A stretch of DNA of 64,000 nt, from NCBI RefSeq assembly GCF_030814475.1, contig NZ_JAUSVF010000002.1, forward strand, positions 744,001-808,000, written 5' to 3'. Under the pieces are notes generated by a model, which searched no databases, had not been told where the DNA came from, and saw only the letters and a list, made by a program, of their open reading frames with translations. Below, one piece after another: positions 34,814 to 46,209 of the stretch (its first letter is position 1; each line of letters starts with the position of its first letter). This DNA is from Pararhizobium capsulatum DSM 1112. GTDB taxonomy: Bacteria; Pseudomonadota; Alphaproteobacteria; Rhizobiales; Rhizobiaceae. A program made the position numbers and the translations under genes.

Positions 34814-35710
34814 ATGGCAGCCGGCAGAACAGGTGGATTGAAGCGCTACTACAATCTGAACGGCTGGCTTTTCATTGCCCCGGCGATCGCGCTGATCTCA
34901 ATCTTTCTCGTCTATCCGATCTTCCGTTCGCTCTATCTGTCCTTCTTCACCGGCAAGGGCATGATGATGAAGTTCGGCGGCACCGCCAATGTCATCCGTC
35001 TCTGGAACGATCCAGTCTTCTTTCAAGCACTGAAGAACACCGTCACCTTCTTCGTGGTGCAGGTGCCGATCATGATCCTGCTGGCGCTTATGCTGGCATC
35101 GGTGCTCAACAATGACCGGCTGAAATTCATCGGCTTCTTCCGCACGGCGATCTTCCTGCCCTGCGTTGCCTCGCTGGTTGCCTATTCCGTGCTGTTCAAG
35201 AGCATGTTTTCCGTCGATGGCGTCGTCAATCAGGCGCTGATGGCGATCGGTCTGGTCGGTTCGCCGATCGGCTGGCTGACGGAACCCTTTTGGGCCAAGC
35301 TGCTGGTGATCCTCGCCATCACATGGCGCTGGACCGGTTACAACATGATCTTCTATCTCGCAGCCCTGCAGAACATCGACAAATCGATCTACGAAGCCGC
35401 AAGGATCGATGGCGTTCCGGCCTGGGCACGCTTCTTCTACATCACCATTCCGATGTTAAAGCCGGTGATCCTCTTCACCACCATCATCTCGACCATCGGC
35501 ACGATCCAGCTGTTCGACGAGGTCTATAACCTGACGGAAGGTCGCGGCAGCCCGGCCAATTCGACGCTGACGCTCTCGCTCTACATCTACAATCTGACCT
35601 TCCGCTTCATGCCAAGTTTCGGCTACGCGGCCACCCTGTCCTACGTCGTAGTGCTTATGGTGGCGCTGTTCTCGTTCCTTCAATTCTATGCCGTGAGGGA
35701 CCGGTCATGA
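34814..35710 (+). CDS. Sugar ABC transporter permease (MalF/UgpA type)
   Basis: 298 residues from the ATG at 34814 (AAAGG upstream); upstream starts would place translation inside the RIME-like repeat. Six hydrophobic segments, EAA loop SIYEAARIDGVPAWARFFYI then TIPMLKPVILF. Its stop overlaps the next permease start by four bases. Second gene of the GH2-associated importer. Confidence 0.92.
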   Translation: MAAGRTGGLKRYYNLNGWLFIAPAIALISIFLVYPIFRSLYLSFFTGKGMMMKFGGTANVIRLWNDPVFFQALKNTVTFFVVQVPIMILLALMLASVLNNDRLKFIGFFRTAIFLPCVASLVAYSVLFKSMFSVDGVVNQALMAIGLVGSPIGWLTEPFWAKLLVILAITWRWTGYNMIFYLAALQNIDKSIYEAARIDGVPAWARFFYITIPMLKPVILFTTIISTIGTIQLFDEVYNLTEGRGSPANSTLTLSLYIYNLTFRFMPSFGYAATLSYVVVLMVALFSFLQFYAVRDRS

Positions 35711-36522
35711 ACCTTTCCCGCCTCTTCAGCACCGGCCTGCAATATGCGTTTCTCGGCATTGCCGCATTCCTCTCGCTGTTTCCGTTCGTCTGGATGGTCA
35801 TCAGCTCGACCAACACATCGATCGATATCATCGGCGGAAAGACGAGCCTGGGTGCCGCCTTCGCAACCAATGTCGCGCACTTCTTCACCCAGGTCGACGT
35901 GCCGCTGGTGTTCTGGAATTCGGCCAAGGTCGCGATCTCGGCGACCGTGCTCACCATCGTCGTTTCGTCGCTCGCCGGTTATGGTTTCGAGATGTTCAAG
36001 TCCAAGGCGCGCGACCGCATCTATTCGCTCGTGCTCCTGACGCTGATGGTGCCCTTTGCGGCATTGATGATCCCGCTGTTCATGATGATGGCAAAGTCCG
36101 GGCTCATCAACACCCATATCGCCATCATGCTGCCGACCATCGCCTCCGCCTTCATCATCTTCTACTTCCGCCAGTCGACCAAGGCCTTCCCGACCGAGCT
36201 TCGCGACGCCGCCAAGGTGGATGGCCTGAAGGAATGGCAGATCTTCCTCTACATCTACGTTCCCGTCATGCGCTCCACTTATGCCGCAGCGCTGGTCATT
36301 GTCTTCATGACCAACTGGAACAACTATCTCTGGCCGCTGATCGTGCTGCAATCCAACGACACCAAGACGATCACCCTCGTCGTCTCGTCGCTCGCCTCGG
36401 CCTATTACCCGGATTACGGCGTGGTGATGATCGGCACCATTCTCGCCACGCTCCCCACGCTCCTCGTCTTCTTCGTTATGCAGCGCCAGTTCGTGCAGGG
36501 CATGCTGGGCTCAGTGAAATAG
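35707..36522 (+). CDS. Sugar ABC transporter permease (MalG/UgpE type)
   Basis: 271 residues, six membrane segments, EAA loop ELRDAAKVDGLKEWQIFLYI followed by YVPVMRSTYAA. ATGA coupling with the upstream permease; the GH2 gene starts nine bases after its stop. Forms the importer channel with the preceding gene product. Confidence 0.93.
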   Translation: MNLSRLFSTGLQYAFLGIAAFLSLFPFVWMVISSTNTSIDIIGGKTSLGAAFATNVAHFFTQVDVPLVFWNSAKVAISATVLTIVVSSLAGYGFEMFKSKARDRIYSLVLLTLMVPFAALMIPLFMMMAKSGLINTHIAIMLPTIASAFIIFYFRQSTKAFPTELRDAAKVDGLKEWQIFLYIYVPVMRSTYAAALVIVFMTNWNNYLWPLIVLQSNDTKTITLVVSSLASAYYPDYGVVMIGTILATLPTLLVFFVMQRQFVQGMLGSVK

Positions 36523-36531
36523 GAAATTCCC

Positions 36532-38778
36532 ATGCGCATTACCGAGAGTTTCAACGGAAACTGGATCTTCAGCCACGGCTTCGAACGTGCAAGCGTCAAC
36601 AGCCTGCGGTCCGGCGAAGCCGTGCGCCTGCCCCATAGCGCGATCGAACTGCCGTACAACTATTTCGACGAGACCGAATACCAGAAGCCGTTCACCTACC
36701 AGAAACACTTCGACTGGCAGCCGGAATTCGAAGGCCGCGAAGTCTCCCTCATCTTCGATGCGGCGATGGCCGACAGCGTCGTCTATCTGAACGGCGAGGA
36801 GATCATCGCCCACAAGGATGGCTACACGCCCTTCGAAGCACGTCTCACGCCGCATCTGCAGCGCGGCGAGAACCTGATCACCGTCAATATCGATGGTTCG
36901 GAAAATCCGGAAATCCCGCCCTTTGGCGGTCAGATCGACTATCTCTGCTATGCCGGCATCTATCGCGATGTCTGGCTGAAGGTCACAAGCCCCATCTCGA
37001 TTGCCAATGTGAAGATCGAGACCCCGGATGCACTGGCGGAAAAGAAGACCGTCACCGCGCGTGTCTTCTTCGCCAATCCGCAGGGGCTTGCCATCTCCGG
37101 TACATTGGCCGCCAAGATCCGCAAGCCGGGTGGCGGCGACGTCGGTTCGGCAACGGTTTCGGTCGAAGGCAACGAAGCCTTCTTCACCTTCTCCGACCTC
37201 ACTGGCATAGAGCTCTGGGATATCGACAACCCCGCCCTCTACGCCCTGTCGCTGAAGCTCGAAACGGAACACGGCGAAGACGTGCTTACCCATCGTTTCG
37301 GCTTCCGTACCGCGGAATTCACGCCGGACGGCTTCCTGCTCAATGGCAAGCCCCTGAAGCTGCGCGGCCTCAACCGCCATCAGGCCTGGCCGCACACTGG
37401 CTACGCCATGGGCCGGCGCGCGCAGGAGAAGGATGCGGATATCCTGAAGCACGAACTGGCCTGCAACATCGTGCGTACGTCGCATTATCCGCAGTCGAAA
37501 TGGTTCCTAGACCGCTGCGACGAGATCGGCCTGCTCTGCTTTGAGGAAATTCCCGGCTGGCAGCATATCGGAGGCGAAGCCTGGCAGCGGGAATCGATCG
37601 AAAACGTCCGCCGCATGATCGAGCGCGACTGGAACCATCCCTCGATCATCATCTGGGGTGTGCGCATCAACGAAAGCCAGGACAACCACGCCTTCTACGC
37701 CGAGACCAACCGCCTCGCCCGCGAGCTCGACAGCACCCGCCAGACCGGCGGCGTGCGCTTCATCACCAATTCCGAGATGCTCGAAGACGTCTACACGATG
37801 AACGACTTCATCCTCGGCCAGGAGGAAATGCCGGGCAACAATCGCGGCCGCGTCGTGTTGCGCGACCGGGTGGAGACAACCGGGATCACCAAGCCGATCC
37901 CCTACATGATCACTGAATACAACGGCCACATGTATCCGACCAAGCGCTTCGACCAGGAGCAGCGTCAGGCCGAGCATGTGACCCGCCATCTTCTGATCCT
38001 CAATGCGGTGGCTGGAGACAGCAATATTTCCGGCTCCACCGGTTGGTGCATGTTCGACTACAACACGCACAAGGATTTCGGTTCCGGCGACCGCATCTGC
38101 TATCACGGCGTGCTCGACATGTACCGCATTCCCAAGCTCGCGGCTTACGCTTATGCCTCGCAGGGCGATACCAAGGACAATGTCGTGCTGCAGCCGGTGA
38201 CCTTCTGGGCGCGCGGCGAGCGCAACATCGGCGGCGTGCTGCCGCTGATCGTGCTGACCAATTGCGACTATATCGACGTGAAGTTCGGCGAATGGGCACC
38301 AAAACGCATCTATCCGGACAAGGAAAACTATCCGCACCTTCCCCATCCGCCGGTCGTGCTCGACCTGCGCACGGTGACGCCGGAGGAATTCGGCACCTGG
38401 GGCCGCGTCTGGCGCGAAGGCACGATCACGGGTTACGTCAATGGCGAGGCGGTCAAGTCGATCACCATGCCGGCAGATCCGGTTCCGACCACGCTGGAAG
38501 TCACGCCGGATGATACGACCTTGCGCAGCGGTGAAAAGGATGCGACCCGCGTCGTGGTGCGCGCGCTCGACCAGTGCGGCAACCTCCTGCCCTTCTTCGA
38601 GGAACCGGTATCGCTGATCCTGGAAGGACCAGGCCGCATCATCGGACCAAGTGAGCATACGCTGAAGGGTGGCGCGACCGGCTTCTGGATCGAGGCTGGA
38701 GACGAAGCGGGCAAGCTTAGCTTGACCGTCAAGAGCCGCCGCTTCGACACCCAGACCGTCACCTTCACGATCAACTGA
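36532..38778 (+). CDS. Glycoside hydrolase family 2 enzyme, beta-galactosidase-like
   Basis: 748 residues with the GH2 order: sugar-binding jelly roll (1-160), Ig-like domain (about 165-270), TIM barrel (about 275-570) and C-terminal Ig-like domains. Candidate acid/base Glu381 lies in WGVRINESQD and nucleophile Glu462 in YMITEYNGH. There is no signal peptide, so the enzyme cleaves imported oligosaccharide in the cytoplasm. Shorter than LacZ and lacking its small subunit. Specificity within GH2 (galactosidase, glucuronidase or other) cannot be fixed; LacI and transporter context points to a beta-linked oligosaccharide. Located between the permeases and the ATPase gene. Confidence 0.9.
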   Translation: MRITESFNGNWIFSHGFERASVNSLRSGEAVRLPHSAIELPYNYFDETEYQKPFTYQKHFDWQPEFEGREVSLIFDAAMADSVVYLNGEEIIAHKDGYTPFEARLTPHLQRGENLITVNIDGSENPEIPPFGGQIDYLCYAGIYRDVWLKVTSPISIANVKIETPDALAEKKTVTARVFFANPQGLAISGTLAAKIRKPGGGDVGSATVSVEGNEAFFTFSDLTGIELWDIDNPALYALSLKLETEHGEDVLTHRFGFRTAEFTPDGFLLNGKPLKLRGLNRHQAWPHTGYAMGRRAQEKDADILKHELACNIVRTSHYPQSKWFLDRCDEIGLLCFEEIPGWQHIGGEAWQRESIENVRRMIERDWNHPSIIIWGVRINESQDNHAFYAETNRLARELDSTRQTGGVRFITNSEMLEDVYTMNDFILGQEEMPGNNRGRVVLRDRVETTGITKPIPYMITEYNGHMYPTKRFDQEQRQAEHVTRHLLILNAVAGDSNISGSTGWCMFDYNTHKDFGSGDRICYHGVLDMYRIPKLAAYAYASQGDTKDNVVLQPVTFWARGERNIGGVLPLIVLTNCDYIDVKFGEWAPKRIYPDKENYPHLPHPPVVLDLRTVTPEEFGTWGRVWREGTITGYVNGEAVKSITMPADPVPTTLEVTPDDTTLRSGEKDATRVVVRALDQCGNLLPFFEEPVSLILEGPGRIIGPSEHTLKGGATGFWIEAGDEAGKLSLTVKSRRFDTQTVTFTIN

Positions 38779-38787
38779 GATACACCC

Positions 38788-39876
38788 ATGACCGATGTCC
38801 GCCTGACCGACATACGCAAGAGATTTGGCGCGCTGGAAATCATCAAGGGCGTCGATCTCTCCATCGATACCGGCGAGTTCGTGGTCTTCGTAGGCCCCTC
38901 CGGCTGCGGGAAATCGACGCTTCTGAGGATGATCGCCGGGCTCGAGGACATCACCTCCGGCGAACTCACCATCGGTGGCAAGGTGATGAACGATGTCGAT
39001 CCGTCCAAACGCGGCATCGCCATGGTGTTCCAGTCCTATGCGCTTTATCCGCACATGACCGTGCGGGAAAACATGGGCTTTGCCCTGCGCTTTGCCGGCG
39101 CCGCCAGGGAAGAGGTCGACGCCCGGGTCAACGAGGCTGCCCGTATCCTCGAACTTGGGCCGCTGATGGATCGAAAACCCAAGGCGCTTTCCGGCGGTCA
39201 ACGCCAGCGGGTGGCGATCGGCCGCGCCATCGTGCGCGACCCTGATGTCTTCCTCTTCGACGAACCCTTGTCCAACCTCGATGCCGAACTGCGCGTCCAC
39301 ATGCGCGTCGAGATCGCCAAGTTGCACAAGACGCTGAAATCGACGGTCATCTACGTGACCCACGATCAGGTCGAAGCCATGACGCTCGCCGACAAGATCG
39401 TCGTGCTGCGCGCAGGGGTGGTCGAGCAGGTCGGTGCGCCGCTCGATCTTTATGATGACCCTGCCAACATGTTCGTCGCCGGCTTCATCGGCTCGCCGCG
39501 AATGAATTTCCTTAAGGCGCGCGTCGTGTCTATTGGTGATGGTAAGGTGCGGCTTGCGCTTCTCAACCAGCCCGAGGTCCAGCTCGATCTCGCGATCACG
39601 TCAACCGCAATCCATGTCAGCGACGATGTGAGCCTCGGCATCAGGCCGGAACATTTCCGCGCCGCAGGCGAAGGCGACGCCGACATGGTGGTCGATATCG
39701 ACGTTGCCGAACATCTCGGCAATACGAGCTATGTCTATGCGCACGTCTCGTCGGAAGAGCGGATCATCATCGAGCGCGAGGATTCGCGTGCTGTTGCCAA
39801 TCGCGACAAGCTCACCGTCGGGCTCTCCGTGACGAGCTCCTTCCTCTTCGACAAGGATGGGGTCCGTATTCGCTGA
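38788..39876 (+). CDS. Sugar ABC transporter ATP-binding protein (UgpC/MsmK type)
   Basis: 362 residues. Walker A GPSGCGKST, Q-loop VFQSYALYPHMTV, signature LSGGQRQRVAIGRAIV, Walker B VFLFDEPLSNLDA and the VTHDQVEAMTLADKIV switch region are intact, followed by a TOBE-type regulatory domain. Starts nine bases after the GH2 stop and closes the operon; a bidirectional terminator follows at 39931. Closely similar to the ATPase at 19601-20698. Confidence 0.95.
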   Translation: MTDVRLTDIRKRFGALEIIKGVDLSIDTGEFVVFVGPSGCGKSTLLRMIAGLEDITSGELTIGGKVMNDVDPSKRGIAMVFQSYALYPHMTVRENMGFALRFAGAAREEVDARVNEAARILELGPLMDRKPKALSGGQRQRVAIGRAIVRDPDVFLFDEPLSNLDAELRVHMRVEIAKLHKTLKSTVIYVTHDQVEAMTLADKIVVLRAGVVEQVGAPLDLYDDPANMFVAGFIGSPRMNFLKARVVSIGDGKVRLALLNQPEVQLDLAITSTAIHVSDDVSLGIRPEHFRAAGEGDADMVVDIDVAEHLGNTSYVYAHVSSEERIIIEREDSRAVANRDKLTVGLSVTSSFLFDKDGVRIR

Positions 39877-39930
39877 AGAGGGTTTTGCCCCACGTGGCAC
39901 TTCTCGATCGCCGACCATTCCCTGAGAATG

Positions 39931-39967
39931 AAAAAGCCGGGCGCACAAAACACCCGGCTGCTTTTTA
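39931..39967. terminator. Bidirectional Rho-independent terminator
   Basis: AGCCGGG (39935-39941) and CCCGGCT (39953-39959) with T-runs on both strands (CTTTTTAT on plus, CTTTTTC on minus). It ends the GH2 operon on the plus strand and the giant repeat gene on the minus strand. Confidence 0.9.
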
Positions 39968-39984
39968 TACGTCGATGATATCGA

Positions 39985-42900
39985 CTAGACCGACTGATAG
40001 GCCGAGATGATGGCGCCGATCTGATCTGCGTTCAATGCTTCTATCTGGGTCTGGGTAATGGCCTGCAGCTGTGCGCTGGTCAGATGCCGGATATCGTCGG
40101 TTGAAAGCCCAGCCAGCGCCGCGGTGGAAATTGCCGCGATATCGCCTGTCGAGAACGTCAGAAGGTCTTCGGTGGCGAGAGCCGCGATCTGTGCCGACGT
40201 CATGCCGGCAACCTGTGTCGGGGTCAGGGCCTCGACCTGCTCCGTCGTCAAGGCGCTGATCTGCGCCGTCGTCAGGCCGATGATCGCCTTCGCGCCCAGC
40301 GAGGCGACCTGACTGGTCGACAATGCCGCGATGTTGGCGGTGCCCAGTGCCGCAAGCTGGATGGCATTCAGCGCGCCGATCTGCTCCGTCGTCAAGCTGC
40401 CGATCTGGCCCGAGGTCAGCGCCTTGACCTGATTGTAGTTGAGCGCTGCAATCTGGGTGGTTTTCAGCGCCGCCAGCTGGCTGGAGCTGAGAGCGACCAT
40501 GTTTCCAGTAGAAAGGCCGGAAATCGCAGCGGCGCTGATCGCCGCGATATCGTCGGTGGAGAAGGTGGCGATATCTTCAGTGCCGAAGGCCGCTATCTGG
40601 GTCGAGCTGAGTGAACCGACCTGCGTCGGCGTCAAAGCTTCCACCTGGCCCGTAGTCAGGGCATTGAGCTGTGCCGTCATCAAACCGGAGATCGCCTTGG
40701 TGCCAAAAGCGGCAATCTGGTCCGTTGTCAGTGCGCTGATCGTTCCCGTCGAAAGACCGGCAGCACCGGCAGCACTCAGCGCACCGATCTGCGTCGTAGA
40801 AAGGGACGCGAGCTGTGCCGTCGTCAGCGCGCCGATCTGGGTGGGCGATAGGACTGCCACCTGACCTGTCGCAAGCGCGGCCAGTTGGGCCGGGCTCAAG
40901 GTCTCCACATTCGCGGCCGAAAGACCGACAAGAGCTGCCGCGGTAATCGCCGCGATATCATCGGTCGAGAATTTGGCAAGCCCTTCGGTGTTCAGCGCAC
41001 CGATCTGCGAGGACGACAGACCCGCGATTTGTGTCGAGCTCAGCGCCTCGGCCTGCCCGCTCGACAGGACGCCGATCTGGCTCGTCGTCAGGCCGGCAAT
41101 CGCCTTGGTGCTGAGCGCGGCGATCTGATCCGTCGAGAAGGCAACGATGCCACCGCTGGCGAATGCTGCGATCTGCGCCGAACCCAGGGCTGCGATCTTG
41201 TCGGTGCTGAGCGATGCAATCTGCCCCGTGGTCAGGGCAGCAATCTGGCTGGAGCCGAACGCAGCGACCTGCGTTGCAGTCAGTGCAGCGATCTTGTCGG
41301 GATCCAGAGTAACGATGGTATCCGCCGAAAGGCCGGCAAGCGCCGTCGTGCTGATGGCGGCGATCTCTTCGTCTGTGAACGTCGCAAGATCGGCGCTGTC
41401 CAGGGCGGCCAGCTGGGCAGAGCCCATCACGGCGATCTGGGCCGTTGAAAGCACGTCGATCTGGCTCGTCGACAACGCATCGATCTGCGCGGATGACAGG
41501 CCGGGAATGGCCTTGGTGCTGACCGCCGAAATCTGATCGACTGAGAGGGCGGCCAAATTGGCGGTAGACAGGCCCGAAAGGGCCGAGGAACTCAGCGCCG
41601 CAATCTGATCCGTACTCAAGCCGGCCAGTTGTGCAGAGGTCAGCGCGCCGGCCTGCGTGGACGAAAGCATTGCCATCTGTGCCGCGGTCAGGGCCGTGAC
41701 CTGTTCCGCCGTCAGGGCCGCGAGATTGTCTGAAGACAGGCCGGCGATCGCCGATGTGCTGATGGCGGCGATGTCATCAAGCGAGAACGTTGCCAGGTCC
41801 TCGGAACTCAGGGTGGCGATCTGGCTGGAGGTCAAAACGCCGACCAGCGTGGAGGTCAGTGCCTCCGCCTGTGCGGTGGACAGAAGCCCAACCTGCGTCG
41901 TCGTCAACCCGCCAATTGCTTTCGTGGTCAGGGAAGCGATCTGATCGGCCGTGAGGCCGGCAATACTGCCTGTCGCCAGGGCCGAAACCTGGGTTGCCGA
42001 CAAGGCGGCAATCTGCGCGGTCGTCAGCGCCGCAATCTGGGTCGAGGAAAGAACCTCGACCTGATCTGCAGAAAGGGCCGCAATCTGGGTTGTCTTCAAG
42101 AGAGCCGTCTGATCCGGTGTCAGGGCTGCAATATTGCCGGTGGAAAGGCCCTTGATGGCGGCGGCACTGATGGCCGCGATCTCGTCATCCGAGAAGGTGG
42201 CCAGCGCTCCCGTGCTGAGCGCACCGATCTGCGCAGAGCCGAGAAGCCCCACCTGCGCCGTCGTCAGCACTTCGACCTGCGCGGTGGTCAGGCTCGCGAC
42301 CTGGGTGGTTGTCAGGCCAGCGATGGCCTTGGTATTCAGAGCCGCAATCTGGTCTGTCGAAAGGGCCGCGATGCTGTCGCTCGACAGAACCTTGACCTGC
42401 GCCGAGCCGAGCGCCGCAATCTGATCGGTGCCGAGAGCCGCGATCTGTGCCGACGTCAGGGCCGCGATCTGCGTCGTCTTCAAGGCTGCAATCTGCGTCG
42501 CCGTGAAAGCGGCCGCCTGCGTGGAGCTAAGCGCTGCGATATTGTCGGTGGAAAGCCCGGAAACGGCCATAGAGCTCAAGGCCGCGATCTCTTCTTCCGA
42601 AAGAGTGGCGAGCGCTTCGCTGGTCAGGGCCGCAACCTGGGGGGCGCTGAGCTTGGATATCTGGACTGTCGTCAGGGCCTCGACCTGCGCGGTGGTTAAC
42701 GCTGCGACCTGCGTCGAGCTCAATCCCGCGAGCGCCTTGGTGCTCAGCGCCGCGATCTGATCTACCGAGAGCGCCGCAATGCTGTCGCTGGAAAGCGCCC
42801 TCAGCTGCGCCGAGCTCAGGACAGCAATTTGGCCGGTGCTCAAAGCCGTAATCTGCGCGGAAGTCAGGGCCGCAATCTGCGTCGTCTTCAAGGCGCTGAT

Positions 42901-44640
42901 CTGCGTCGTCTTCAGAGCGCCCGTATGATCGGAGCTCAGCGCCGCAACATTCGCTGTCGAAAGCCCGGCCACGGCCGTAGCCGTGATCGCCGCAATCTCG
43001 TTTTCGGTGAAGGTTGCAAGATCCGCCGTACTGAAGGCGGCGATCTGCGTCGAGTTAAGGTTTGCTATCTGGGTATAGCTCAACGCCTCGACCTGCGCAG
43101 TGGAGAGCGCATCGATCTGGCCGGATGTCAAACCCACCACGGCTTTTGCGTTCAAGGCAGCAATATGATCGGCCGAAAAGGCGGCCACGCTTTCAGTGGA
43201 AAGCGCCTTGAGCTGCGTCGAGTTGAGAGCCGCGACCTGCACCGTGGACAGGGCAGCAATCTGTGCCGTGGTCAGCGCTGCAACCTGGCTCGTTTTCAGG
43301 GCCGCGACCTGGCTGGTTTTCAGGGCCACCAACTGTTCGCTGCTAAGCGCTGCGATGCTCGACGAGGACAGGCCGGAGATGGCGGACGAACTGATTGCCG
43401 CGATATCGGCAGTCGAGAATGTTGCGAGATCAGCCGAGCTCAAGGCGGCGAGCTGGGTGGCGTTCATCGCACCGACCAGCACCGAAGTCAGAGCCTCGGC
43501 CTGTGCGGTCGAGAGGACGCTAATCTGCTCGGACGTCAAACCGGGAACCGCGCGCGTGCTGATGGCCGCAACCTGGCTGGTCGAAAGAGTTGCGATGTTC
43601 CCGGTGGAAAGCGCTTTCACTTGTGCCGCGTTCAACATCCCGATCTGCGCTGTCGTCAGAGCCGCAATCTGGTCGGTGGTCAAGGCGGCAATCTGGACAG
43701 ATTTCAGGGCCGCAAGCTGGGCCGTCTTGAGGACGGCCATCTGTGCCGTGCTCAAGACGGCCATGCTGGCTGACGACAGACCCGCAATCGCCGACGCGCT
43801 GATGGCTGCAATATCGGCCGTCGAGAAGGTCGCGAGGTCTGCAGAACTCAGCGCCGCGATCTGGGCGGAACTCATGGCGCCGACGAGCGTCGAGGACAGG
43901 GCCTCGGCTTGCTCCGTCGAAAGCGCCACGACCTGTGCAGTGGTCAGCCCCGGGATGGCCTTCGAGTTCAGGGCCGCGATCTGGTCAGTGGACAGCGCTG
44001 CGATGGTTGCGGTCGAAAGCGCCTTGATCTGCGCGGAGGTGAGGGCGGCGATCTGCGTCGTCGTCAACGCCGCAATCTGGCCGGATGTCAACGCGGCGAC
44101 CTGGACAGTCTTCAGGGCGGCGATCTGGTTGGTTCGGAGCGCTGCCGTCTGCTCGGAGCTGAGAACCCCGATATTGGCGGTGGAAAGGCCGGCAAAGGCG
44201 GCCGGCTTCAGGGCCGCGATTTCCGCCGTCGTAAAGGTCACGATCTCATCGGTTGACAGCGTTGCAAGCTGCGACGAGGTGAGCGCTGCAACCTGCGCCG
44301 TGTTCAGGGCTTCAATCTGGGTGGAATCCAGGGCACCAATCTGGCTGGTTTTAAGGGCGGCCACCTGGCCGGTTGCAAGACTGCTGATCTTGTCCGTCGT
44401 CAAAAGCAGCAGCTGATCGAGGTTCAATCCGACAATAGATGCTGGTGCGATCGCGCCGACCTGTGCGGTCGAGAAGGCTGCGAAATCTTCTGTTTCAAGG
44501 GCACCGATCTGGCCGGATGAAAGGGCCTTAACCTGCGTCGTGGATAGCGCCGCGATGTCTTCCGTCGTCCAGGCGGCAATTGCCGCTGTTGACAGAGACC
44601 TGATCTGGCTGACGCTCAGCGAAGGGATGGTCGAGGTCAT
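39985..44640 (-). CDS. Giant octapeptide-repeat protein, 193 tandem octads
   Basis: 1551 residues = 7 + 193 x 8 with no break in register. The consensus octad is L-[ST]-[ST]-x-Q-[IV]-x-A (for example LTTAQIAA). Every 17 octads (136 residues, 408 bp) a landmark recurs, F-S-x-x-D/E-I-A-A then I-S-x-x-A-I-x-G; it appears at octads 17, 34, 51 and so on to 187, eleven times. A second Gly-ended octad (for example LNSKAIPG) falls ten octads after each landmark glycine, giving 10+7 periodicity. No signal peptide, membrane segment or Cys; very rich in Ala, Ser, Thr, Leu, Ile and Gln. C-terminus is IISAYQSV. AAGGG precedes the ATG. Function unknown: surface, secreted or structural roles are all possible. 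Confidence 0.9.
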   Translation of the reverse strand: MTSTIPSLSVSQIRSLSTAAIAAWTTEDIAALSTTQVKALSSGQIGALETEDFAAFSTAQVGAIAPASIVGLNLDQLLLLTTDKISSLATGQVAALKTSQIGALDSTQIEALNTAQVAALTSSQLATLSTDEIVTFTTAEIAALKPAAFAGLSTANIGVLSSEQTAALRTNQIAALKTVQVAALTSGQIAALTTTQIAALTSAQIKALSTATIAALSTDQIAALNSKAIPGLTTAQVVALSTEQAEALSSTLVGAMSSAQIAALSSADLATFSTADIAAISASAIAGLSSASMAVLSTAQMAVLKTAQLAALKSVQIAALTTDQIAALTTAQIGMLNAAQVKALSTGNIATLSTSQVAAISTRAVPGLTSEQISVLSTAQAEALTSVLVGAMNATQLAALSSADLATFSTADIAAISSSAISGLSSSSIAALSSEQLVALKTSQVAALKTSQVAALTTAQIAALSTVQVAALNSTQLKALSTESVAAFSADHIAALNAKAVVGLTSGQIDALSTAQVEALSYTQIANLNSTQIAAFSTADLATFTENEIAAITATAVAGLSTANVAALSSDHTGALKTTQISALKTTQIAALTSAQITALSTGQIAVLSSAQLRALSSDSIAALSVDQIAALSTKALAGLSSTQVAALTTAQVEALTTVQISKLSAPQVAALTSEALATLSEEEIAALSSMAVSGLSTDNIAALSSTQAAAFTATQIAALKTTQIAALTSAQIAALGTDQIAALGSAQVKVLSSDSIAALSTDQIAALNTKAIAGLTTTQVASLTTAQVEVLTTAQVGLLGSAQIGALSTGALATFSDDEIAAISAAAIKGLSTGNIAALTPDQTALLKTTQIAALSADQVEVLSSTQIAALTTAQIAALSATQVSALATGSIAGLTADQIASLTTKAIGGLTTTQVGLLSTAQAEALTSTLVGVLTSSQIATLSSEDLATFSLDDIAAISTSAIAGLSSDNLAALTAEQVTALTAAQMAMLSSTQAGALTSAQLAGLSTDQIAALSSSALSGLSTANLAALSVDQISAVSTKAIPGLSSAQIDALSTSQIDVLSTAQIAVMGSAQLAALDSADLATFTDEEIAAISTTALAGLSADTIVTLDPDKIAALTATQVAAFGSSQIAALTTGQIASLSTDKIAALGSAQIAAFASGGIVAFSTDQIAALSTKAIAGLTTSQIGVLSSGQAEALSSTQIAGLSSSQIGALNTEGLAKFSTDDIAAITAAALVGLSAANVETLSPAQLAALATGQVAVLSPTQIGALTTAQLASLSTTQIGALSAAGAAGLSTGTISALTTDQIAAFGTKAISGLMTAQLNALTTGQVEALTPTQVGSLSSTQIAAFGTEDIATFSTDDIAAISAAAISGLSTGNMVALSSSQLAALKTTQIAALNYNQVKALTSGQIGSLTTEQIGALNAIQLAALGTANIAALSTSQVASLGAKAIIGLTTAQISALTTEQVEALTPTQVAGMTSAQIAALATEDLLTFSTGDIAAISTAALAGLSTDDIRHLTSAQLQAITQTQIEALNADQIGAIISAYQSV

Positions 44641-44919
44641 AAACGAAGCCCTTTGGTATTATTCCGTTGATTAAAAAACGCGTACGGCAATCTTCACGCT
44701 GCAACGGTCATCCGAAGGGTTTTCGAGACCCCCCATGCCCATCGATGGCAACCGTCACCGGCTGTCTCCATCGCGGCAAAAAGGAGAATCGGCACTCCAG
44801 CTTCCTCGCGCAGCGTGCCATACATGCGCGAGCAGGCTTGCCCCAGGCTTTCAGGGACACGTTTGGCGGGCAGGAATTTCCCCGCACTTCAGCGAAGGTG
44901 AAAATCTCGACCTGAAAAT
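44641..44919 (-). promoter_or_regulatory. Upstream region of the repeat-protein gene
   Basis: 279 bp between the repeat gene start and the end of the PuuB-like gene, both on the minus strand. On the minus strand, AT-rich sequence with a run of T and AATAATACC lies just before the ribosome site and probably holds the promoter. No gene or strong symmetry is seen in the rest. Confidence 0.4.
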
Positions 44920-46209
44920 CTAGCGACGCTTTTCGCGCCGCTGGAAATACCACATGCCGATAGCAAGGGCCTGATTGCCAAGGAACCGACCGACGGGCAA
45001 CCGCCAATGGCGGGCGCTTGCGAATATATCCAGCTGGCGCGGATCGCCGGTCAGCGCGGACGCCATGATTTCGCCTACGATATGGGAGGTGGCAACACCA
45101 TGGCCGGAATAGCCCTGGGCATAGAAGACATTGTCGGCGATGCGGCCGAGTTGGGGAATGCGATTGATGGTAATCCCATCCTGACCCTGCCAGGCAAAAT
45201 CGATGCCGATACCCTTGAGTTGCGGAAAGGTCTTTTCGATTGCGGGACGCAAGGCATCCTTGAGGTTCGCCGTCTCCCGGCCGGTGTAATTCGTGCCGCT
45301 GCCGAACAAAAGCCGGCGATCTGCGGTCAGCCGATAATAATCGAGCACGAAGCGGGTGTCGTAAACGGCCAGGTCCTGCGGGTTGATATCCTGAACCATC
45401 GCTTCAGAAAGCGGTTCCGTCGTCACGATGCCGAGGGTGGCGGGAAAGAGCAGCCCGCTGAGTTTGGCGCGCGCCAGCCTGTGAGATGCGTTGCCGGCCA
45501 GCAACACCCTTTCGGCATGAACGCTACCGCCGTCGGTGACCAGCTCGACACGCCGGCCATGCCTGATTTCATTGACCTTGGTACCAGTGAAGATGCGAGC
45601 GCCGAGACTGCGGGCTGCATCGGCTTCGCCAAGGCAGAGATTGAGCGAATGCACATGCATGTTGCGGCGGTTGATCAGGCCAGCGGCATAGATATCGGTG
45701 CCGATCACGTCGCGCACGGCCGTGCCATACACCATCTCGACGTCGTCGCCCGTGCCATGGGCGCGGGCGGCACGATAGGTCTGTTCGAGCTCGGCAACGT
45801 GAGAGGATTTGAAGGCGGCATGCATATGGCCGAACTTCAGGTCACAGCGAATGGCATATTTTTCGACGCGGCGGCGAATGATGTCGTGCCCTCGCCAACG
45901 CAGATTCCAGACAAAATCCTCTGCCCCGTCGCCCAACACACGGCGGAACTGACGGAGCATGGCCTGATCACCCGACAGCGAGCCGGTGATCTGCCCGCCA
46001 TTGCGGCTAGAGGCACCCCAGCCAATCAGATTGGCTTCCAGCAGCGCGACGGAAACACCCTTCTCTGCCAGTTCCAGAGCCGTCGCAACACCAGTGAACC
46101 CGCCACCGATGACAGCGACATCTACCTCCAGGCGGCCATTAAGCCGGCCAAAAGGCTCAGGCTGGTTGGCCGTTGCGGCATAATAGGACTGGCAATAGGG
46201 TTCGGCCAT
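44920..46209 (-). CDS. PuuB-like FAD-dependent amine oxidase
   Basis: 429 residues. FAD motif VAVIGGGFTGVATALELAEK near residues 31-50, the segment GWGASSRNGGQI with the usual Arg-Asn-Gly-Gly pattern, and a C-terminal GYSGHGVATSHIVG. This matches gamma-glutamylputrescine oxidase (PuuB) and relatives, which oxidise an amine to an aldehyde. It follows a PuuA-like glutamine-synthetase homologue by 37 bp, the arrangement of the gamma-glutamylated polyamine route. PuuC and PuuD are not in the window, so the pathway is incomplete here. Confidence 0.85.
   Translation of the reverse strand: MAEPYCQSYYAATANQPEPFGRLNGRLEVDVAVIGGGFTGVATALELAEKGVSVALLEANLIGWGASSRNGGQITGSLSGDQAMLRQFRRVLGDGAEDFVWNLRWRGHDIIRRRVEKYAIRCDLKFGHMHAAFKSSHVAELEQTYRAARAHGTGDDVEMVYGTAVRDVIGTDIYAAGLINRRNMHVHSLNLCLGEADAARSLGARIFTGTKVNEIRHGRRVELVTDGGSVHAERVLLAGNASHRLARAKLSGLLFPATLGIVTTEPLSEAMVQDINPQDLAVYDTRFVLDYYRLTADRRLLFGSGTNYTGRETANLKDALRPAIEKTFPQLKGIGIDFAWQGQDGITINRIPQLGRIADNVFYAQGYSGHGVATSHIVGEIMASALTGDPRQLDIFASARHWRLPVGRFLGNQALAIGMWYFQRREKRR

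Follow-up and report, generated by a model that had tools for sequence, protein, structure and literature searches.

The question raised by this locus is what a bacterial protein built almost entirely from octapeptides may be, and what keeps its repeats in one register. The window, i.e., the whole stretch of 64,000 nucleotides analyzed here, comes from Pararhizobium capsulatum DSM 1112 (assembly GCF_030814475.1, contig NZ_JAUSVF010000002.1, positions 744,001 to 808,000), and the gene in question, at 39985..44640 on the minus strand, encodes 1551 residues. We found that the protein belongs to a named family of repeats, that its octads are predicted to form a helical screw, and that genes of this family are genetically tied to one clade of GT41 glycosyltransferases. 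Taken as a whole, our reading is that such proteins may be exported fibres glycosylated at the third position of the octad, to which we assign a probability of roughly 0.3.

Read octad by octad, the window protein consists of the leader MTSTIPS (7 residues) and 193 octads in a single register, and a Viterbi parse returned one block without a register break. This bears out the layout of 7 + 193 x 8 residues, free of insertions and deletions, that had been given in a preliminary description made from the sequence alone. The octad consensus is L-[ST]-[ST]-x-Q-[IV]-A-A, with L in position 1 of 155/193 octads, Q in position 5 of 114/193 and I or V in position 6 of 145/193, together with biases toward S/T in positions 2 and 3 and toward A in positions 7 and 8. 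The landmark octad [FL]-[ST]-x-x-[DE]-I-A-A is found only at octads 17, 34, 51, 68, 85, 102, 119, 136, 153, 170 and 187, that is, at the eleven places described previously, with L instead of F at octad 85. Each landmark is followed by an octad of the form [IL]-x-x-x-A-hydrophobic-x-G, the loosest copy being octad 18, LKPAAFAG. An alternation of Gly-ended octads at distances of 10 and 7 had been described as well; it holds from octad 18 to octad 103, whereas extra Gly octads disturb it beyond 103. Compared to 200 shuffles of octad order, lags of 17, 51 and 34 octads in the window protein have z = 18.2, 13.2 and 12.5, respectively. The features of the gene are the following.

39985..44640, minus strand: ALTTAQ octapeptide-repeat protein, 1551 residues, 7 + 193 x 8, matching PF20080 in 65 stretches
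44620..44640, minus strand: leader MTSTIPS, 7 residues; a start of the type M[TS][ST]-x-[IV]-x-[ST] before octad 1 is found also in many relatives
44212..44619, minus strand: octads 1-17, the N-terminal segment, which closes with the first landmark, FTTAEIAA, and is partly off the super-repeat phase in the profile fit
40132..44211, minus strand: octads 18-187, ten super-repeats of 17 octads (136 residues) in one phase
42988..44211, minus strand: octads 18-68, the piece modelled with AlphaFold2
39988..40131, minus strand: octads 188-193, the C-terminal segment, ending in ..QIGAIISAYQSV; ends matching ..A[VI]I.AY.. are found repeatedly among relatives
39935..39959, minus strand: terminator-like hairpin of 10 pairs with a T run, directly past the stop codon; such hairpins number 6 in the region versus 3.9 in shuffles

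The preliminary description knew of no named family with this pattern; however, hmmscan matched the window protein to Pfam PF20080 (ALTTAQ_rpt) at 963 bits, compared to a curated cut-off of 26.4. NCBIfam gave no match to the window protein above any cut-off. CAAP1, Sigma70_r4_2 and LRR_EndoS, which scored above their cut-offs, and Gp5_trimer_C and DUF4351, which scored below theirs, were set aside as low-complexity cross-matches, no single stretch having passed alone. The reported lack of an RTX motif was confirmed in a test for an RTX-type substrate of type I secretion, in which the window protein had no match to the nonapeptide family PF00353 at E 1. We found at least 287 homologues of the window protein; among the 120 listed, filamentous-haemagglutinin (FHA), RTX, calpain, G8 or Ig-like domains are often attached and the register is broken in many, whereas the window protein contains octads only. 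A search of open-licence PubMed Central (PMC) returned no paper naming ALTTAQ, PF20080 or HeliScrew, and no report of this protein or of the link to GT41. The repeat family is known, and what is new is the pure-octad form, the regularity of 3.4 octads across alphaproteobacterial lineages and the dedicated GT41 enzyme.

The genome of P. capsulatum (G000; loci and genomes carry our L and G labels) contains two copies, the window gene and a paralogue of 1335 residues (166 octads) on another contig. The repeat family was detected in 13/61 genomes of a nearer set, in 41/247 sampled genomes of Rhizobiaceae (34 of these are classed as strong, with at least 25 matches, as opposed to 7 with just 1-6) and in 6/289 sampled genomes of Alphaproteobacteria, own genome included; the three samples overlap. 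There are 57 plasmid or chromid records with a match over at least 80% of the query. A scan of genome contigs yielded a single locus, in Agrobacterium rosae, and a scan of viral contigs with six peptide patterns, to which phage records did not belong, found no relative. In the control genome of Caulobacter vibrioides, a laboratory species that could serve as a model, both ALTTAQ and GT41 (of unspecified clade) match. Many relatives begin with M[TS][ST]-x-[IV] and finish in a sequence similar to ..QVAAVIAAYQ.., and in several the register breaks once or a few times. Judged by their starts, there are at least two types of paralogues, one with Trp as in IAAWTTEDIAAL (the window copy) and one without Trp as in IASLNTEDVAAL (the GT41-adjacent copy). 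The strict conservation of length that had been proposed was not found: when frames that were masked or cut by the fetched stretch are excluded, octad numbers vary freely from 41 (L043, a frame without a start) and 44 (L145) up to 365 (L045), whereas the 17-octad period and the 7/10 spacing persist in relatives. In nine pairs of equal-length relatives dN/dS was 0.045-0.247, which is indicative of constraint on such repeat genes; together with the octad shuffles, these ratios exclude chance or drift as the origin of the pattern.

The structure prediction suggested in the preliminary description was run on 51 octads (18-68). The AlphaFold2 model has a predicted local distance difference test score (pLDDT) of 95.9 and a predicted template modelling score (pTM) of 0.83, and was obtained with an alignment (A2) of eight staggered pieces of the window protein itself; A2 was chosen because another alignment, A1, with pieces of A. 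rosae, opened gaps. Relative to the first piece, those offset by whole super-repeats show 51-60% identity. In the one-piece model each octad contains one short helix, mostly of 5-6 residues, which starts at octad position 3. Each octad would thus comprise a short helix and a turn, with a core formed by L1 and I/V6 together with A7 and A8, whereas S/T2 and Q5 we take to resemble a helix-capping box. A long alpha-helical solenoid is the very probable fold, and the earlier claim that the protein is not disordered but a continuous solenoid maintained by selection agrees with this model and with the dN/dS values.

Structural neighbours were weak matches only. The top Foldseek rows were mesothelin (E 2.8e-4), with a TM-score not above 0.45 among the rows seen, and Foldseek together with VIA pointed to mesothelin and ARM-like proteins. 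Mesothelin is a solenoid of 24 short helices in nine layers, with units of 27-37 residues (PMC10035497). This ARM/HEAT-like protein is an animal, GPI-anchored one with irregular repeats, and it is absent from the sequence matches. The only solved sequence relative at E < 0.001 is the Protein Data Bank entry 9zem, "HeliScrew4" (E 2.2e-17, 109 residues aligned), which is absent from the Foldseek and VIA rows shown (structure library to 2026-04-08). By sequence it has the same kind of tandem octads, LTPEQIAA-like and Pro-rich at position 3; with 120 residues it is too short for a 17-octad super-repeat.

Two points had been missed in the preliminary description, namely a screw of 3.4 octads per turn that would account for the numbers 17, 10 and 7, and the tie of the family to a GT41 clade. 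Concerning the screw, the top autocorrelation lags of long runs were 17 and its multiples, with 7, 10, 24, 27, 41, 44 and 58, and the dominant lags lie near multiples of 3.4 (7/2, 10/3, 17/5, 24/7). A lag near such a multiple, other than of the 17 type, was among the top six in 66/68 runs, the exceptions being L060 and L135. The leading spectral lines, at 0.294, 0.412 and 0.118 per octad, correspond, once aliasing is taken into account, to the first three harmonics of 5/17. The strongest in-band line fell at 0.292-0.300 per octad in 68/68 runs of at least 40 octads, where the peak search was confined to 0.265-0.325 and several runs stem from close relatives; duplicate or truncated loci (L043, L050, L121, L123, L128, L142, L143, L145), proteins with masked X and shorter runs were excluded. 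In four proteins from other alphaproteobacterial families, with super-repeats of 24 or 31/62 octads, the overall spectral maximum was at 0.29-0.2925. Intervals between Gly/no-Gln landmarks (n = 1350) showed the same preference: 465 intervals of 7 versus 72 in shuffled sequences, 265 of 10 versus 43, and 94 of 17 versus 16.5. Phase skips in the profile fit were 7 in 42/84 cases and 10 in 15/84, counts inflated by common N-terminal events and by self-similarity of the profile. When the 17 phases of the window protein are arranged by screw angle, the two Gly/no-Gln phases are neighbours, at 85 and 106 degrees, and the acidic phases, apart from some exceptions, cluster from about 212 to 21 degrees; the lag-7 permutation p was 0.002, the lag having been picked after the periodicity was seen.

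These spectra suggest that about 3.4 octads (27 residues) may correspond to a physical turn. With such a turn, octads 7, 10 or 17 apart would share nearly one face, and octad sequences may be selected by the face of the screw on which they lie. On this reading, a unit of 17 octads would be a short block after which the screw comes back to the same face. The distant homologues are mixed: in a set of 40 of the 120 listed homologues, taken for having enough octads in runs of at least 20 and passed through a crude redundancy filter, 12/40 exceed z = 3 in the band 0.284-0.304, compared to 1-7 in each of 21 other bands of equal width (0.044-0.484). Therefore, 3.4 is a rule for the alphaproteobacterial proteins examined, and may not hold for the family as a whole. 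A two-octad alternation (0.48-0.495) was observed in P0054, P0064, P0067, P0014, P0039 and others, and is perhaps another mode of packing.

The second point concerns neighbouring genes. Clustering of neighbours in 30 loci picked for the repeat alone revealed a GT41 gene in 13 loci, mostly with about 680 residues; the paralogue locus of P. capsulatum is one of the 13, and in another the gene is a fragment at the locus edge. The linked enzymes combine tetratricopeptide repeats (TPR) with a GT41 domain (PF13844), match human O-GlcNAc transferase (OGT) at E 3e-86, and keep a histidine and the lysine of FNxxxKI, which we take to be H498 and K842 of OGT. In a tree of 63 GT41 rows (rows below 440 residues, or below 500 for locus-neighbourhood rows, or below 200 bits were excluded), the linked enzymes form one clade of 15 rows with support of 100/100, all from repeat-bearing genomes. 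A separate clade of 43 rows comes from genomes with and without the repeat, one member lying near flagellin-like genes (by eye). The linked clade was found in 11/13 repeat-bearing and 0/48 other genomes of the nearer set. In the Rhizobiaceae sample it was found in 24 genomes, 24/24 with the repeat, and in 0/206 genomes lacking the repeat (Fisher 1e-22, kinship uncorrected); the scores are bimodal, 1103-1334 bits in these 24 genomes and 467 for the next. In the class sample, besides G000, there are three carriers (796-880 bits, next 460), all among the five repeat-bearing genomes, versus 0/283 others. The GT41 gene lies within 2 kb of the repeat gene in 22/24 Rhizobiaceae carriers; in G217 the two are 4.5 kb apart near a contig end, and in G234 the 20 kb fetched contain no repeat gene. 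This GT41 clade is genetically tied to the repeat genes. Read from this linkage, the repeat proteins are probably glycosylated, and we lean slightly toward this GT41 itself acting on proteins of the ALTTAQ family.

Genes of sugar metabolism accompany the pair. A gene for UDP-galactopyranose mutase neighbours the repeat in 22/64 loci, many of which were picked around GT41, and in 5/30 loci picked for the repeat alone; a nucleoside-diphosphate-sugar epimerase-like gene is near two class-level loci. A protein with a PF12248 domain (cluster c2, about 417 residues; L042, L060 and others) is encoded in 9/64 loci, where its gene mostly stands between those for GT41 and UDP-galactopyranose mutase. Flagellin-like genes were noticed by eye in the repeat loci L058, L132, L134, L135 and L141; those of L058 lie close to a second GT41, which belongs to the other clade.

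A hint of the acceptor comes from octad composition. The median S/T fraction at position 3 was 0.78 where the genome has the GT41 clade (45 proteins) and 0.43 where it does not (nine proteins; Mann-Whitney 1.6e-5), whereas the medians with and without the clade were alike at position 2 (0.77, 0.80) and position 4 (0.23, 0.20). This comparison excluded proteins below 90 octads, masked ones, and L062, L064, L066 and L067, the GT41 status of which is unclear, and kept the near-duplicates L059/L128, L065/L145, L118/L121, L122/L123, L061/L063, L124/L125 and L134/L141. In the nine genomes for which both copies were complete or almost so (in G249 the fetched stretch truncates the adjacent copy), the GT41-adjacent copy was richer in position-3 S/T than the other copy in 9/9 genomes (Wilcoxon 0.004), with no such difference at positions 2 and 4; second copies of G066, G124, G143, G165, G234, G251 and G276, which were cut, masked, fragmentary or not fetched, were left out. 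It should be noted that the position-3 bias is phylogenetically confounded: by their C-terminal 60 residues, 8/9 adjacent copies are nearest to another adjacent copy, the ninth being cut. In G438 and G519 the S/T fraction is 0.95-0.96 at position 3 and 0.86-0.93 at position 4; as both are rich in S/T, the acceptor there could be either position.

Evidence on export comes from the same two genomes, G438 (L148) and G519 (L151), in which genes for an HlyB-like ABC transporter and an HlyD-like adaptor separate the GT41 genes from the repeat gene. The HlyB-like match is 606 bits, below the curated cut-off of 725.55; the G438 HlyD exceeds its cut-off, and the G519 protein shares 75% identity with it along its whole length. 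In both loci a second GT41 directly follows the repeat-linked one, and then come the HlyD/HlyB-like genes and the repeat gene, in the arrangement of a compact cassette for glycosylation and export. A search of the two G463 loci with tblastn at E 1e-25 found no HlyB/HlyD pair of the L148 type. In P. capsulatum, locus L152 (G000 C2:223500-243400) has an HlyB/HlyD-type pair near a gene for an Ig-like repeat protein of 1492 residues and sugar-nucleotide genes (by eye).

We propose, then, that the ALTTAQ octads may form a long unbranched alpha-helical screw that a dedicated TPR-GT41 would O-glycosylate in the cytoplasm on many Ser/Thr residues, octad position 3 being the likeliest acceptor. The screw would then leave the cell, perhaps through a type I system, and become a sugar-coated fibre of the surface or matrix. 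In P. capsulatum, the enzyme would come from the gene beside the paralogue, not beside the window copy. A more specific form of this proposal, which we hold only tentatively, has at most one sugar per octad at position 3 (more than 100 sites per molecule), set in a helical lattice of about 3.4 sites per turn on a fibre leaving by type I export, perhaps with galactofuranose where glf is adjacent. Two known systems are similar in part. In Caulobacter, the cytoplasmic FlmG, a TPR protein with a GT-B O-glycosyltransferase, modifies exported flagellin and recognizes it through its N-terminal domain (PMC7591256); FlmG is thus an example of a TPR O-glycosyltransferase of the cytoplasm acting on a filament protein that is exported. 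The substrate of FlmG is flagellin and its donor pseudaminic acid, whereas the ALTTAQ-linked enzymes form a clade of their own, in a tree without a FlmG row, and are often encoded beside UDP-galactopyranose mutase. The second system involves HMW1C, an enzyme of the GT41 family. In Haemophilus, HMW1C is reported to be dedicated to one large exported adhesin, HMW1 (PMC3012730). That modification is N-linked at sequons and the adhesin uses two-partner secretion, whereas ALTTAQ proteins contain just 0-8 N-x-S/T sequons each.

Several points weigh against this reading. Glycosylation, acceptor position, export route and surface role are what we infer; the 3.4-octad turn comes from sequence spectra, the AlphaFold2 model from pieces of the protein itself, and a fold of 1199 residues computed without an alignment had a pLDDT of 36.3 and was not used. 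Only 4/40 distant homologues have their best line in the 3.4 band, and 14/40 peak at 0.48 or above, at the two-octad alternation (the band table ends at 0.484). The Fisher and Mann-Whitney values overstate significance because species are not independent, and the paired result amounts to about one evolutionary contrast because the adjacent copies are largely one orthologous lineage; in G021 the two copies differ in position-3 S/T by merely 0.004. No GT41 or secretion gene adjoins the window copy, the GT41 lying next to the paralogue on the other contig, and 10/34 strongly repeat-positive Rhizobiaceae genomes lack the clade. The type I link was seen in a single genus: tblastn at E 1e-25 recovered no HlyB/HlyD pair of the L148 type from 59 further loci, and the only full-length HlyB-type match of P. 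capsulatum (G000 C2:232135-234240; 676 bits, below the cut-off) is unlinked to a repeat gene and adjoins the gene of another large protein. Genomes with a strong repeat and no GT41 clade are what a secreted fibre or spacer without sugar would predict, the GT41 serving another target, e.g., flagellin or a polysaccharide primer, and being merely co-inherited. The flagellin-like genes in 5/64 loci and the 43-row clade, spread over genomes with and without the repeat, fit this alternative as well. We regard it as possible but doubtful, given that the linked clade was never seen without the repeat (24/24, 11/11 and 4/4 carriers in overlapping samples), that GT41 and repeat genes are so close, and that Ser/Thr at position 3 follows the presence of GT41 and Ser/Thr at positions 2 and 4 does not.

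The other alternatives are less probable. A cytoplasmic scaffold or length ruler that is never exported would suit a gene without an adjoining secretion gene and a 7-residue leader that has, by eye, no obvious hydrophobic signal segment, as well as the confinement of the HlyB/HlyD pair; we consider it unlikely, since distant homologues bear domains that belong to exported proteins (filamentous-haemagglutinin, RTX, Ig-like) and such a pair adjoins the repeat gene in two genomes. The 17-octad period, for its part, may only record that a block of 136 residues was once duplicated in tandem, with no structural cause. Duplication predicts the identity of 51-60% between pieces shifted by super-repeats, any exact duplication yields spectral harmonics, and the 3.4 line is missing in many distant homologues. 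Conversely, the unit itself contains lags 7 and 10, the spectral maximum is common to lineages whose super-repeats differ in length (17, 24 and 31/62 octads), and 57/84 phase skips are 7 or 10, with the inflation mentioned above (shared N-terminal skips, profile self-similarity), so that we judge this origin improbable, too. A neutral expansion without function, to which the low-complexity composition and variable octad number might point, is already contradicted by the dN/dS of the nine pairs, by the long open frames and by the recurrent N- and C-terminal segments, and is very improbable.

Around the repeat gene, no consensus sigma-70 promoter was found in 39800-44990. Long antisense open reading frames of up to 406 residues lie opposite the repeat, e.g., window 43196-44416 on the plus strand, and are probably a by-product of periodic codons rather than genes. 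At 35707-39876 on the plus strand, convergent to the repeat gene, there are sugar ABC transporter-like genes and a glycosidase-like frame of 748 residues (by eye); the paralogue locus L039 also holds related transporter genes.

For the family, these results mean that a named and apparently unstudied group of proteins gains a proposed geometry of about 3.4 octads per turn, which covers the distances 7, 10, 17 and 24, together with a partner enzyme and a modification site. To our knowledge, the natural substrates of bacterial TPR-GT41 enzymes are few, and the proposal would supply both a substrate and an acceptor position for one of them. The octad screw would also be a simple modular scaffold, and the HeliScrew4 deposit suggests that others are already at work on it.

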